Source: Candidatus Nanohaloarchaea archaeon
GTDB lineage: Archaea; EX4484-52; GLR71
DNA: 34,764 nt
NCBI GenBank assembly: GCA_013138765.1
Contig: WTCB01000028.1
Coordinates: forward strand, 1 to 34,764
Reading direction: 5' to 3'
Under the pieces are notes generated by a model. That model was given only the letters and a program-made list of their open reading frames with translations, was not told the DNA's origin and searched no databases. Positions within the stretch are counted from its first letter, which is position 1. Every line of letters starts with the position of its first letter. Below are positions 1-14,083 of this stretch, piece by piece. Both the position numbers and the translations under genes were made by a program.

Positions 1-290
1 TAGATTCTCTTATTCATAATATATACCACTTAAAATACCTATATATTATATAATTTATATAGATATAAAAAATTTATCCCACAAAACACACTATATCCAA
101 AAAACTAACGCCCCCTTCCCACAAACCATAACAGCGAGAACTCAACTCTTCACTCACATTCGTTCGCTTGTCCTCATTTCATTCGGAGAACATAACAAAT
201 GCTTTTAAGGTTACGCCTACGACTCCACCCAAATTAGTCCTGCGGACTAACTTCTCATAATCCAATCTGTTAAATCCAATTTCAAGTTTC

Positions 291-786: not shown

Positions 787-903
787 ATTTAACAAAGCTT
801 AAAGGGTTCACTCGTTGCAGTTCGCTCTCTCAAATTTTTTCTCAGCCCTCACTCACTAAGTTCGTGGAGGAAGAGAAAACTTCCCTTAAGCCCGTTGTTA
901 GGC
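787..903 (+). other. candidate integron attC-like recombination site
   Basis: R'' ATTTAAC (787-793) and R' GTTAGGC (897-903) both fit RYYYAAC/GTTRRRY; inner arms GCTTAAAGGG (797-806) and CCCTTAAGC (883-891) pair with one extra A on the 5' arm; total 117 bp. Confidence 0.5.
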
Positions 904-964: not shown

Positions 965-1249
965 ATGAAACTACACGACATAAAAATCATCAAAAAGGAT
1001 GAAAGAGGCACAATTTATGATTGTGGCAAATCTAGCTTTATTTCTAGAAAGAAAGGAACTATTAGTGCCAATCATAAACATGAGGATCCTGAAATTGTTT
1101 ATCTGATTAAGGGAGAAATAGAATTGACAATTGGTGATGAAACAAAGATAGTAAACGCGCCAGTCATGTTCAAGACTGATTCTAATGTTTATCACAAATT
1201 AGTTGCGCTAACTAATATAGAACTTGTAATCGATAGGGACGGCGAGTAA
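965..1249 (+). CDS. small cupin-fold protein (94 aa)
   Basis: HKHEDPEIVYLIKGEIELTIGDE...VYHKL resembles the cupin barrel motif. Confidence 0.65.
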   Translation: MKLHDIKIIKKDERGTIYDCGKSSFISRKKGTISANHKHEDPEIVYLIKGEIELTIGDETKIVNAPVMFKTDSNVYHKLVALTNIELVIDRDGE

Positions 1250-1294: not shown

Positions 1295-1394
1295 ATATAA
1301 CAAGAGATATACGAGAAATGGCTCGGCTCGCCATTTCTCTAAATTTTTCTTTCGCTACGCTACAGAAAAACTTCATATAGCCCTGACGTTCAAC
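1295..1394 (+). other. weaker attC-like/palindromic element after cupin ORF
   Basis: ATATAAC (1295-1301), arms GATATACG/CATATAGC (6/8 paired), GTTCAAC (1388-1394); internal perfect 10-bp hairpin GAGAAATGGC-TCGGCTC-GCCATTTCTC (1313-1339). Confidence 0.3.
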
Positions 1395-1506
1395 GAAACT
1401 CGAAAGCTCGCCTACGAATTTTTCTTATTTTAAATAAGTTTTTGAATTATATTAATTCCTATTCAGTAAAAAAAGATTTATAAAGATTTCCTGATGTATA
1501 GATTAT

Positions 1507-1962
1507 ATGCCACAAAAAACAGACTCTCAAATGTATCGAGATATTATGCTTGAAACTACTGAAGGCGTTCTGTCAACCGCCAAAAATGTAGTTGAACTGA
1601 CCTTGACGAATCCACATGTTGGATACCGTTTAAATATACAAGGAGAAGTACGGCAGAACCCAGGTGATCTTTCAAAAACCATAACAGAACTCCAAAATAG
1701 CATGGAATTATATTTGTTATCTGATAAAGGCGAACTTATATTCTACGAAGGAAGCACAAATAAAGTAAACATCGCTTCTGTAGACTTAGTGGCTAATAGC
1801 ATCAAATTCTCACGACCAGAAAAAATGTTCGGTTTTAAAGTTCTTATCAAAGAAGAAGAGGGATATGGTCACAAAAAAATACCCACCGAAGATGTAATCG
1901 AAATATACGGTGAGGTATTAAAGGAATTTACAGAAGGTTTTAAAGGAAATATTTTTTCTTAA
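1507..1962 (+). CDS. hypothetical protein (151 aa)
   Basis: ORF with TATA-like ttataaag upstream. Confidence 0.6.
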   Translation: MPQKTDSQMYRDIMLETTEGVLSTAKNVVELTLTNPHVGYRLNIQGEVRQNPGDLSKTITELQNSMELYLLSDKGELIFYEGSTNKVNIASVDLVANSIKFSRPEKMFGFKVLIKEEEGYGHKKIPTEDVIEIYGEVLKEFTEGFKGNIFS

Positions 1963-2030: not shown

Positions 2031-2154
2031 TTATACCATTGGTTAGCAGTCGCTGAACAAGTATTTTTAAGACCCCACTTTTTTTCACCCAAATTCTTGC
2101 TAACAATCAGCACAGATGAAAGACATATAAATACATAAACATCATTTTTAATCT

Positions 2155-3021
2155 ATGGAAACCTGGTTTATATTTGGCATCTTAAGTTACTTATCATATG
2201 CGATATCGACATCAATTGACAAATATATGATGAATGAAAAATATAACACAATAAAGACAAATACATTGAAGATGTTTTTTGACGGTATAATACTCTTGAT
2301 AGCAAGTTCCATATTTTTCAACATCAGCATAACCAATAACCTAATTTTTGGTTCATTGATCCTTGGAAGCATCTATGCATTCTCAGGAATTTTCTATTTT
2401 GAGACACTAAACCTTAAAGATGTCAGTTCAATTGTCCCATACTACAGCTCAGCATCATTATTGTTTATCTTTTTTGGTTCAATAATATTCTTCAACGAGA
2501 TTGTCAATATATTCAATTACATAGGCATTGCAGCAATAATGATCGGAATATACCTTGTCCTTTCAGAGACCGGTTTAAGACTGCCAAAAAAAGATAAAGG
2601 ATTGACTTATGCGACAATAGTAATCATATTTAGTGTTTCATATTCACTCCTCACCAAACTATTTTTAAATGACATAGAACCCATGGCTCTCGCAATCTGT
2701 ATGTATTTCTCAGCAACATTATTTCTGATATTATACCTACACATATTCAAGAAAGAGAACCTGAAACAGATTACACATTATAAAAGGTATAAGAAACAGA
2801 TAAAGAACATATTTATCGCATCCTTTTTCGGAGCATCAGGCACATTTCTCCTATATTATGCATTATCCGTCGGAAATGCATCAAAAGTATATCCATTAGT
2901 CGGACTCCAGATGATATTTATATTCATGATTGCCACAATTATGCTTAAAGAAAAATTCAGGTTACATAAGTTCATAGGAACCCTCATAGTTTTCATAGGT
3001 ATTTTTTTAATTTCAATTTAA
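2155..3021 (+). CDS. EamA/DMT-family transporter
   Basis: ~10 hydrophobic segments in two repeats, EamA-like pattern (ALSVGNASKVYPLVGLQMIF). Confidence 0.8.
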   Translation: METWFIFGILSYLSYAISTSIDKYMMNEKYNTIKTNTLKMFFDGIILLIASSIFFNISITNNLIFGSLILGSIYAFSGIFYFETLNLKDVSSIVPYYSSASLLFIFFGSIIFFNEIVNIFNYIGIAAIMIGIYLVLSETGLRLPKKDKGLTYATIVIIFSVSYSLLTKLFLNDIEPMALAICMYFSATLFLILYLHIFKKENLKQITHYKRYKKQIKNIFIASFFGASGTFLLYYALSVGNASKVYPLVGLQMIFIFMIATIMLKEKFRLHKFIGTLIVFIGIFLISI

Positions 3022-3136
3022 TCTGCCTAAAATCCAAAATCAACCCAAAGCTTTTTAAGCTTTTAGTTATTAACACTCTACATATTACTTACTTTGAGCC
3101 ACGTTCTCAAAAAAAATATACAGACGGTGTCATGAT

Positions 3137-3439
3137 ATGAAACTTCCGGAAGAGATTAAGAGATTCTGCCCATCCTGCAACAGCCACAACATGCACAAGA
3201 TAAAAAGGATAAAGACCGCAGGTCGTGCAAAAGCTGGCCTAAAAAAAAGAGACAGACACATCCGAGAAAAACTGCACAAAGGATACGGGGGCAGTCCAAA
3301 ACCACTCCCTGCAAACAGTAACAGATACGGTGCAAAGACAAGTCAGAAGATCATGCTAAAATTTACATGCACAAAATGCAACAAAGCACATCAGAGCACT
3401 GCTCCGAAAAGATCAAAAAAATTCGAGATTACAAGATAG
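3137..3439 (+). CDS. rpl44e: 50S ribosomal protein L44e
   Basis: MKLPEEIKRFCPSCNSHNMHKI...KGYGGSPKPLP...KFTCTKCNKAHQ; zinc-binding CxxC pairs. Confidence 0.95.
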   Translation: MKLPEEIKRFCPSCNSHNMHKIKRIKTAGRAKAGLKKRDRHIREKLHKGYGGSPKPLPANSNRYGAKTSQKIMLKFTCTKCNKAHQSTAPKRSKKFEITR

Positions 3440-3452
3440 ATGGTGAATATAT

Positions 3453-3620
3453 ATGGTAGGCACATTCATGAAAGTCAAATGTTCAAAATGTAGCAATGAA
3501 CAGAATATCTTCAGCAAAGCTGCAACTGATGTTAAATGTCTTGTTTGCGAGAGCACACTAGCAAAATCAACAGGCGGAAACTCAAAAATTAAGGCGGATA
3601 TTGTTAAAAAGCTTAAATGA
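3453..3620 (+). CDS. rps27e: 30S ribosomal protein S27e (55 aa)
   Basis: MVGTFMKVKCSKCSNEQNIFSKAATDVKCLVCESTLAKSTGGNSKI...; CxxC..CxxC; adjacent to L44e; absent from the ORF track because of length. Confidence 0.92.
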   Translation: MVGTFMKVKCSKCSNEQNIFSKAATDVKCLVCESTLAKSTGGNSKIKADIVKKLK

Positions 3621-3680
3621 TTTTTTTTTCTTTTTACAGAATGGGTGTAATGGCCCATACCTTTTTTAAAACAATTTTAA

Positions 3681-4457
3681 GTGAATATTATGCAGAGCAG
3701 CAAAAACAGACCAAAAGTCGGCGAGATAATAATAGCCGAAGTCATAAGCATAAACCCAAACAGCATATACGTCAAACTTGAAGAATACAATATGAACGGA
3801 ATGATCCATGTTACAGAACTATCAACCAGTTGGGTCAAAGACATACGTAAGATTGCAAAAAAAGGCCAAAAATTAGTTCTCAAAGTGCTTCCTTCACGAG
3901 GAGACGGAAGAATCGCCAGTCTTTCATTAAAAAGAGTAAAACCGTCACAAAAACGTGAAAAGCTGGAATTTATTAAAAACGAAAAAAGAGCTGAAAAAAT
4001 TCTTGACTTCTTGATAGAAAAATTAGAATTAAAAGACAACAAAGAAGACATCAAAAAAATAACAGACACGCTCATTGAATATTACGAAAGTCTTTACAAT
4101 GCATTCAGCTCAATTTCTGCAGAAGGTGCAGATAAAGATTTTACCAAAGACATAGGCGAAAAATGGTCAAAAGAAATAGAGATTATCGCAAAAGAAAAAA
4201 TAAGACCAAAAATACTTACTATCCGTGGAAACTTGACAATAAAAAATACCAGCGAGAATGGTCTAAAGATCATAAAAAAAGCATTAAATATAAATAATCC
4301 AAAAATTAAGATAGCATATATCAGCGCTCCAAAATACATGATTGAAATTGAAGGCAAAAATTACGCAGACATGGAAAAAGAACTGGCCAAAACCATTGAA
4401 AGCATAACAGATGCATTAAAAAGCAATAAAGGTGAATGTACATTCGCAAAGGTGTAA
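3681..4457 (+). CDS. translation initiation factor aIF2 subunit alpha
   Basis: N-terminal S1 domain (VKLEEYNMNGMIHVTELSTSWVKDIRK), aIF2-alpha C-terminal domain. Confidence 0.95.
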   Translation: MNIMQSSKNRPKVGEIIIAEVISINPNSIYVKLEEYNMNGMIHVTELSTSWVKDIRKIAKKGQKLVLKVLPSRGDGRIASLSLKRVKPSQKREKLEFIKNEKRAEKILDFLIEKLELKDNKEDIKKITDTLIEYYESLYNAFSSISAEGADKDFTKDIGEKWSKEIEIIAKEKIRPKILTIRGNLTIKNTSENGLKIIKKALNINNPKIKIAYISAPKYMIEIEGKNYADMEKELAKTIESITDALKSNKGECTFAKV

Positions 4458-11847: not shown

Positions 11848-11955
11848 AGTCCTAATTAACTTAAACATAGTTATTTACTATTAAAACCCCTTAGGACAGA
11901 TACCCTGGATTAGGTGGGGGGATGCGAAAGCTTCCACCCAACCACTTTTCTTATA
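11848..11955 (+). ncRNA. candidate structured ncRNA, class unknown (boundaries approximate)
   Basis: GC-rich island in AT-rich intergenic DNA; hairpin 11913-11943 with GAAA tetraloop. Confidence 0.4.
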
Positions 11956-11974
11956 ATAATTTATAACTAATTTA

Positions 11975-13399
11975 TCAATCAGAAGATTTACCAAATAAAT
12001 ATTTTATCTCATTCTGTCTAACTTTTTCAACAGTATTTATAGGAACAGCTTTTAGATTCTCTTCTAAACTTGTAAGTATATGAGACAAAAAATCAAACAC
12101 ACGACTTTCTAAATCATCATCTGCTCTTTCAAAGAAAGTACGATTCTCTTTTAATGTCATATCAACAAATTTACCTTTACTGTATTCTTCTTCAGGAAGC
12201 CTATACATAACCGCCACCGTTTGACCACCCACAACTTGTGCCCGAATCACACCCTGATGCATTTTACCAGTTTTAAACGATTCTACAGGCATAGTATCAA
12301 CAAATTCCTGAAGAATATAAGACCCCATCTCAACAAAAGGATATACCCTCCGTCCATAAGAATTTATCCAAGGCCAATCAAATGCACCATTTACTAAATC
12401 ATTTTTTGAAAAATTAAAGCCAGATTCATTTGCAAGCCATATTCTATTTCGAACACTCTCAAGTTGTGGATAAATATCTTTTTCAATTTCAATCATATCA
12501 TCCAATACATCCTTATTCAAAAAAGAGACATCAGTCCCATAATGAGTACACATTGGTTTTTTTACTGCAAGAAGATCAACATCATTTTCTGATAAAGAAC
12601 ACACAAATTGTTCAATTTCGTTATAAGAACTTAAACCCATACCTAAATATATTTCATTTAAGAAAATATCATCAAGATTAATATCATTACAAAAATATTT
12701 AATCAAAAGTCTCGGTGTCCATTTCGGAACAGTGACACCCAAAGATGCAGAGATTGTTTGAGTATTTATAATTTCAAATGAATCCTTATCATTTCCATTA
12801 TAACTATAAGCCAACATCTTAGGATGAAAATATAAATTATCCCCCCAATTAACAAAAAGTCCAATTTTTGCCCGAGGAATTATCTTACAATCATATCGCA
12901 TATCTTTAAAATTAAACTCTTGAAAATACATATTATCATTATCAAATTTTAAAGCCCGTCCAATATGAAAATCATCAGCCACACCATTTTGTCTTGCCGA
13001 TTTTTTTAAATAATTCACATCATTCATAATTTCAGTAGAATTACCGGTTTTATTAAAATCTTCAATCTTTTTTTGTTTATCTTTATCAGATTCAATTCGT
13101 TCAGATATCCAATCAAGATGTGAAAAACCAAAAGGAATAGATTCATAAAACTGTTTTAAAGAACGAGGCAATATATGATTATTAGATGATTTAATATCCA
13201 TAGAATAAATTATCTTATCACCATTTTGACGCATACCTTTCAAAATATCAACATATTTATAAATCCGCGAAAATCGAGGTGAATATTTTGCGCGTTCACT
13301 AAAACTTACACCATCAGTAAGCCCATGAATCTCAATAATCTTAAATTGACCACATTTAGTCTCAACAAGATCAATCCCATAATAATTTTTAAAGACCAT
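11975..13399 (-). CDS. hypothetical protein (474 aa), possible ATP-grasp-like
   Basis: YGIDLVETKCGQFKIIEIHGLTDG and QEFVDTMPVE...GVIRAQVVGGQTVAVMYRLPEEE resemble ATP-grasp strands; not decisive. Confidence 0.55.
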   Translation of the reverse strand: MVFKNYYGIDLVETKCGQFKIIEIHGLTDGVSFSERAKYSPRFSRIYKYVDILKGMRQNGDKIIYSMDIKSSNNHILPRSLKQFYESIPFGFSHLDWISERIESDKDKQKKIEDFNKTGNSTEIMNDVNYLKKSARQNGVADDFHIGRALKFDNDNMYFQEFNFKDMRYDCKIIPRAKIGLFVNWGDNLYFHPKMLAYSYNGNDKDSFEIINTQTISASLGVTVPKWTPRLLIKYFCNDINLDDIFLNEIYLGMGLSSYNEIEQFVCSLSENDVDLLAVKKPMCTHYGTDVSFLNKDVLDDMIEIEKDIYPQLESVRNRIWLANESGFNFSKNDLVNGAFDWPWINSYGRRVYPFVEMGSYILQEFVDTMPVESFKTGKMHQGVIRAQVVGGQTVAVMYRLPEEEYSKGKFVDMTLKENRTFFERADDDLESRVFDFLSHILTSLEENLKAVPINTVEKVRQNEIKYLFGKSSD

Positions 13400-13453: not shown

Positions 13454-14083
13454 ATGCTCACAATTGAAAAATTTGAAGAAAATTTTAATTCTGTATGTTA
13501 CCAACAGATATTAGAGATTTTAGAATCTAAAGCAAACTTAGCAAAACTAGAACAAGATAAATCTGAAAATAAACACAAAGATGAACCCAATCGCTATCGT
13601 GATGAACACCTTATCAGAAAAAATGTTAGCATAGACATATTTGTTGCATACATCTTAAAAGATATTGAAAACGAAGAACAGATCCGAGAAGCTGCAACAT
13701 ACCTATATCATGTAACAGAAAAGATAATGGCAGATTTTAAAAATTCTGAATTTTATGAAAAATTCAGTGAACAATATGGAATCAACATAGGATTAAATGC
13801 AATTTATGCAAACACAGACATAATAGATACATATTATGACACATTCACAGAGGATTTAAGACTTGACTTCATTGATGGCTGGAAAGACAATCCAGATTCA
13901 ATATATAGAGAATTTTTAGCTCAAACAGCAGATAATAATCTTGTGTTCATCATAAGACCTGAAGATGGAGACATAACAATATCCATACCAACAAAAGACA
14001 CATATATAGACTGGCACGGAAATGTATATGTTGATGGACACCCAGAACTCCTAATTAAACAAAATCAAATAAAAACACAATAG
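13454..14083 (+). CDS. hypothetical protein (209 aa)
   Basis: ORF track; divergently oriented from the 474-aa gene. Confidence 0.6.
   Translation: MLTIEKFEENFNSVCYQQILEILESKANLAKLEQDKSENKHKDEPNRYRDEHLIRKNVSIDIFVAYILKDIENEEQIREAATYLYHVTEKIMADFKNSEFYEKFSEQYGINIGLNAIYANTDIIDTYYDTFTEDLRLDFIDGWKDNPDSIYREFLAQTADNNLVFIIRPEDGDITISIPTKDTYIDWHGNVYVDGHPELLIKQNQIKTQ

Follow-up and report, generated by a model that had tools for sequence, protein, structure and literature searches.

The stretch at 787–903 raises the question of whether an attC-like recombination site lies in an archaeal chromosome, and which recombinase would act on it. Integrons are defined by the integrase IntI, and the recognition of attC is credited to a domain found only in IntI. 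The window, that is, the whole stretch of DNA analysed here (34,764 nucleotides), is contig C28, read from base 1, of a genome assembly of 1.26 Mb in 127 contigs that is 88% complete. The contig is archaeal. S27e, uS2 (in its archaeal/eukaryotic form) and TFS exceed their NCBIfam cut-offs; L44e is recognised by Pfam, and aIF2-alpha is recognised as well.

According to a base-by-base check, every box that the original prediction had assigned to 787–903 (site B) is found where it was placed, with a total length of 117 bp (Table 1), and the cores fit RYYYAAC/GTTRRRY. In a scan for R boxes and paired arms, site B is the top candidate of the window among the sites without R-box mismatches, with scores of 20.5 on the plus strand and 22.8 on the minus strand. 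Bacterial attC sites mostly score about 25–37 in the same scan, so that site B lies below most of them, and a chance match with two R-box mismatches scores 21.2. The folding energy of site B is ordinary (z −0.55 and −0.11). Because the scan score is near that of a chance match and the folding energy is ordinary, site B taken alone is unconvincing, and the site family decides. The minus-strand reading of site B has the slightly higher naive score, yet it was rejected, as the family alignment sets the orientation to plus. Site B has no match in Rfam, a plasmid search with it returned nothing relevant, and no second copy of the surrounding stretch was found in its own genome.

In a DNA-level search of 34 phylum genomes with the first 2.15 kb of the window, four of its noncoding blocks were found again in many genomes, mostly with 73–97% identity; a contig has several of them, spaced by about 1 kb and on a single strand. 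The family consensus opens with RYWTAAC-AAG, and a left arm that varies leads to a first hairpin. Next come CCCAAATT-loop-AACTTC, the right arm and a spacer, and the site closes with GTTAWRY, behind which AATT lies. The attC cores and the folded imperfect hairpin expected of an integron site are both present, and the family cores RYWTAAC/GTTAWRY are a Vibrio-like variant of the consensus. A covariance model with the window sites included (R1) finds sites in 25 of the 34 genomes, with E values down to 3e-16. A second model (R2) rests on 46 sites, all of them taken from other genomes than the one analysed here. R2 recovers the sites A, B and C of the window (Table 1), and also finds four sites on three other contigs of the same genome, three of the four near a contig end. 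As this model from other genomes finds site B (E ~2e-9), and as two more complete sites lie in the same 2.1 kb, site B was accepted as real. A homologue of site B is located in the genome G024 (L062:4574–4669). The site family and the archaeal genes on the same contig support the proposal that an archaeal chromosome holds an attC-like site here.

Table 1. Array end, chromosomal flank and boxes of site B. Positions are those of the window; bit scores are from the covariance models R1 and R2 (own genome left out).
Feature	Position	Strand	Sequence, score or remark
attC-like site A	190–282	+	R1 71.1 bits; R2 64.5 bits
129-aa ORF between sites A and B	291–680	−	against array direction; no family
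attC-like site B (the finding)	787–903	+	117 bp; R1 67.1 bits; R2 50.5 bits, E 2.2e-9
Site B, R''	787–793	+	ATTTAAC (read base by base)
Site B, R''-side spacer	794–796	+	AAA
Site B, L''	797–806	+	GCTTAAAGGG
Site B, inner hairpin	831 to 883	+	CAAATT (from 831) ... AACTTC (to 883)
Site B, L'	883–891	+	CCCTTAAGC
Site B, R'-side spacer	892–896	+	CCGTT
Site B, R'	897–903	+	GTTAGGC
Cupin-domain protein (Cupin_2), 94 aa, cassette between B and C	965–1249	+	
attC-like site C	1295–1401	+	R1 76.3 bits; R2 43.6 bits
151-aa ORF, cassette between C and D	1507–1962	+	
Truncated attC-like site D, array boundary	about 2052–2110	+	5' half only; BLAST
Chromosomal flank common to G022 and G023 (EamA transporter, L44e, S27e, aIF2-alpha)	2111–4457	+	homology starts at 2111

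The first 2.1 kb of the window is the end of a cassette array, with three full sites and a truncated one on a single strand. An integron is expected to have at least two attC sites less than 4 kb apart in one orientation; here the four sites lie within 2 kb. Site C is 78% identical to a site on contig C65 of the same genome. The region 2053–2112, corresponding to site D, gives BLAST matches to sites of congeners; site D is weak in R1 (23 bits, E 0.067), and R2 gives no match to it at E 1. Of the three cassette ORFs in the window, one is reversed. The DNA of the 151-aa ORF (1472–1920) is 77% identical to a region of contig C80 of G010, a genome of another family of the phylum. No array was detected on that contig, and the homology begins at about the TATA-like promoter of the ORF. 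Besides the attC-like sites, perfect inverted repeats of 14 nt (908–921/1241–1254) bracket the cupin gene, and those of 12 nt (280–291/717–728) bracket the 129-aa ORF.

A structure of 22 pairs is formed over 46 sites, with an outer core stem, an arm stem of 9 bp and two inner hairpins, and 91% of the positions are paired. The covariation score is 0.400 as compared with at most 0.10 for the slid-partner controls, and the double-change cells number 170 versus 22–39 with the partner slid; the structure was picked on the same alignment and is thus favoured over these controls, the margin being large nonetheless. The covariation stops at the core box. The six inner stem pairs tested beat all of 2000 shuffles, and the triplets outside TAAC/GTTA do not. 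This end of the covariation is expected if the outer ends belong to different cassettes.

On the top strand, A lies opposite C at columns 18/119 (21 of 46 sites) and 69/114 (45 of 46). The extra A noted on the 5' arm corresponds to column 18/119, where the remaining relatives all have G-C or A-T. The base is present in site B; the family alignment reads it better as an A.C mismatch, and a strand bias arises in another way. A top-strand A.C becomes a T.G wobble on the bottom strand, and no top-strand G.T is observed at either column pair. For this reason the bottom strand folds better: it is the more stable strand in 48 of 51 sites (p 1e-9), the sites being related and not 48 independent events. 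In attC, the bottom strand is the folding strand.

In the relatives, neighbouring sites lie on the same strand in all of 46 pairs, with a median period of 764 bp. The ORFs run with the array in 43 of 53 cases (p 6e-6), and of the 20 cassette ORFs sampled, 16 match no Pfam family. The congeners G022 and G023 are 84–85% identical to the window rightwards from 2111 (EamA, L44e, S27e and onwards). To the left of this boundary, both have attC-like sites again and otherwise no DNA similarity to the window cassettes. One locus holds differing cassettes in G022 and G023. In G022, another half site can be read in the sequence before the same boundary. In G019, similarity to the window is found only from 3043 onwards. 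A 555-aa ORF ends about 110 bp before L44e in this genome, and EamA and the array are absent there. The predicted reading of the array from left to right, with the head expected to the left, agrees with these results.

The original prediction also called for an integrase of the IntI type. No match to the IntI family (TIGR02249) was found in the own genome, and none of the 34 phylum genomes has one over the curated cut-off. In the own assembly (88% complete), XerA is likewise without a match. The XerA-type recombinases of the phylum form a largely host-congruent set and two mobile, host-incongruent clades, X and Y. Between two families of the phylum, the proteins of clade X share 82–94% identity, and their identity to Pyrococcus XerA is about 43%. 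The array-head recombinases score 250–266 bits against NF040815, above its cut-off, as required of XerA. This profile is that of XerA, the archaeal chromosome-dimer recombinase (PDB 4a8e, 5hxy). The array-head recombinases lack about 40 residues between conserved blocks that are present in IntI1 and VchIntIA.

In the classic divergent layout, the array head is an X gene in G016:C82 and G004:C78 and a Y gene in G016:C50; other Y genes (G029:C43, G004:C65) are codirectional with the array. A palindrome of 10–15 bp followed by a GTTA core adjoins 9 of 13 X/Y genes versus 1 of 14 other XerA genes (Fisher p 0.001). The cores next to the palindromes are mostly GTTAWRY..AATT. The palindrome with its core is a putative attI analogue and is not of the known attI sequence type; it is absent from the contig of the window. 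Where at least 1 kb of contig remains, attC-like sites are found for 6 of 7 X/Y genes versus 1 of 14 others (p 0.0009); this filter was set post hoc, and the unfiltered counts are 6 of 14 versus 1 of 14 (p 0.04). Eight X/Y genes have no site on their contig, and in seven of them the contig ends within 0.7 kb on that side. One such contig ends exactly at GTTA, which is expected if strains differ beyond that point. The Y contig G019:C25 has no complete attC-like site in the 2.7 kb past the attI-like site. The link between XerA and arrays rests on six array-bearing contigs, and in one case a host-congruent XerA gene (G015:C45) is also near sites.

Some further arrangements were observed beside the recombinase genes. 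Next to the attI-like site in L126 (G019:C25, about 2550–2752) and in L111 (upstream of 6574), AACTTCTCTTAACC precedes CTAACAAAGGTTAAGAGG. This block, which is also found near L116, resembles attC halves in swapped order. In L114 (11593–11692) and L116 (5158–5253), an attC-like site is located only about 185–191 bp from the recombinase start, a distance too short for an ordinary first cassette gene.

Several other explanations of the sites were considered. The array may be an ordinary IntI-based integron or a CALIN, with the true IntI elsewhere or in trans and the XerA genes as bystanders. Archaeal CALINs and six archaeal IntIs have been reported (PMC9668308), and both the fit of the site B cores to the classical consensus and the Vibrio-like cores of the other sites are consistent with this. 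Yet 25 phylum genomes have sites and none has IntI over the cut-off. The attI-like palindromes adjoin the X/Y genes and not the other XerA genes, and the archaeal and bacterial site models fail to detect each other's sites. We consider an IntI-based array unlikely. When the rule for refutation attached to the original prediction is applied literally, a canonical integron would be rejected, as the own genome has no IntI match and the small bacterial attC model does not detect the site.

Dispersed repeats (MITEs or another kind of transposable element) that lie between genes by chance would likewise be short elements with inverted ends and many copies in a genome. The single orientation in each array, the spacing of about one gene, the strongly divergent sequences with preserved pairing and the single-copy surroundings of site B in its genome make such repeats a very improbable source. 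It is just as hard to maintain that the sites encode a structured RNA, be it a regulator or a terminator, on the bottom strand, as the covarying structure and the bottom-strand wobble pairs might suggest. There is no Rfam match, the neighbouring genes are mostly on the top strand so that the RNA would be antisense, the GTTAWRY core recurs at the attI-like palindromes, and the covariation ends at the core. A chance palindrome in AT-rich noncoding DNA would explain the ordinary folding energy of a single site. For site B this explanation is already refuted by the match to the model free of own-genome sequences (E ~2e-9), and with homologues across the phylum its probability is negligible.

The evidence points to an integron-like relative rather than to an IntI-type integron. 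We propose, with a probability of about 0.78, that 787–903 is an attC-analogue site of an integron-like array and that a XerA-type recombinase is the most likely enzyme. A cassette comprises roughly one gene with a single site behind it. The bottom strand of the site would fold as a stem with two inner hairpins, so that the inverted cores RYWTAAC ... GTTAWRY meet as the recombinase target. A XerA-type enzyme would insert and remove cassettes; its gene would lie at the array head next to an attI-like palindrome that shares this core. In this reaction, the attI palindrome and core would be joined at G^TT to the bottom-strand-folded attC of a circular cassette, and the array would grow reading away from attI. 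The window would then be the old, distal end of the array, with site D decayed. The site family with its conserved structure and strand bias, the array organisation, the differing cassettes at one locus and the recombinase genes at the array heads of relatives are observed; recombination at GTT, XerA as the enzyme and an integrase in this organism, none being assembled, are inferred. In the established view, IntI requires an additional domain to act on folded attC. Clades X and Y are without this domain, which argues against XerA as the enzyme. The blindness of the bacterial attC model to these sites argues against the integron-like reading.

Ghaly et al. (2022, PMC9668308) reported archaeal integrons by using HattCI/Infernal and IntegronFinder; most were CALINs, and six IntIs with the IntI domain were recovered. 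The present arrays are similar in that they are located in archaeal chromosomes (MAGs), short genes are arranged mostly in one orientation, the attC folds, many arrays have no detected integrase, and sites are more alike within a lineage. They differ in the array heads, which are of the XerA type, whereas the archaeal IntIs described in 2022 have the domain specific to IntI. Certain arrays of the present set may be among the CALINs of that study. In open-licence papers, no report of XerA-headed or other IntI-less archaeal integrons was found; the searches gave only the 2022 discovery paper and papers naming the terms in passing.

The Vibrio VCR-type integrons have similar cores (ATATAAC/ACATAAC ... 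GTTATGT/GTTAAGT), the same layout of spacers and arms, sites of about 90–125 bp, a single gene per cassette and the integrase at the array head. In contrast to the bacterial chromosomal integrons, the archaeal sites have a fixed second hairpin CAAATT...AACTTC, and the site profiles do not cross-detect. R2 gives no match in four bacterial integron replicons, nor in 90 kb of integron loci with the filters off. The bacterial attC covariance model (R3), which is small and biased to class 1 and Vibrio, detects bacterial attCs unseen in its building. R3 gives no match in the window, does not raise site B above noise with the filters off, and finds none of the archaeal family sites. The strand bias by energy, which the archaeal sites owe to the wobble positions, is absent from the bacterial sites (11 of 22). 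As for XerA, the array-head recombinases exceed the NF040815 cut-off and clade X resembles the Pyrococcus protein; unlike the host-congruent XerA, X and Y are additional copies that do not follow the host tree and that go with attI-like palindromes and cassette arrays.

Two other features were observed elsewhere in the window. A noncoding block at 11850–11960 (plus strand) is present as a single copy in all seven genomes of the genus with 86–95% identity, and more weakly outside the genus. It contains a GC-rich hairpin, has no Rfam match and is possibly a small RNA gene. A divergent pair of ORFs at 11975–13399 (minus strand, 474 aa) and 13454–14083 (plus strand, 209 aa) has no match in Pfam or PADLOC.

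The system is integron-like in its presumed working, yet it lacks the defining feature, IntI. More likely than not, it is a second kind of integron, independent of IntI and native to the archaeal phylum, in which XerA-type recombinases without the extra domain of IntI capture cassettes with Y-shaped bottom-strand attC sites at a palindromic attI. If so, the archaeal Xer machinery would have given rise to cassette capture independently of bacterial IntI or earlier than it. Archaeal cassette arrays may be undercounted in surveys that rely on IntI and on bacterial attC models. A phylum-wide attC-like cassette system with XerA-type recombinases only would uncouple attC recognition from IntI and would give a concrete test of the origin of integrons from Xer recombinases. 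It would also show that small archaeal genomes commonly gain genes by the capture of cassettes.
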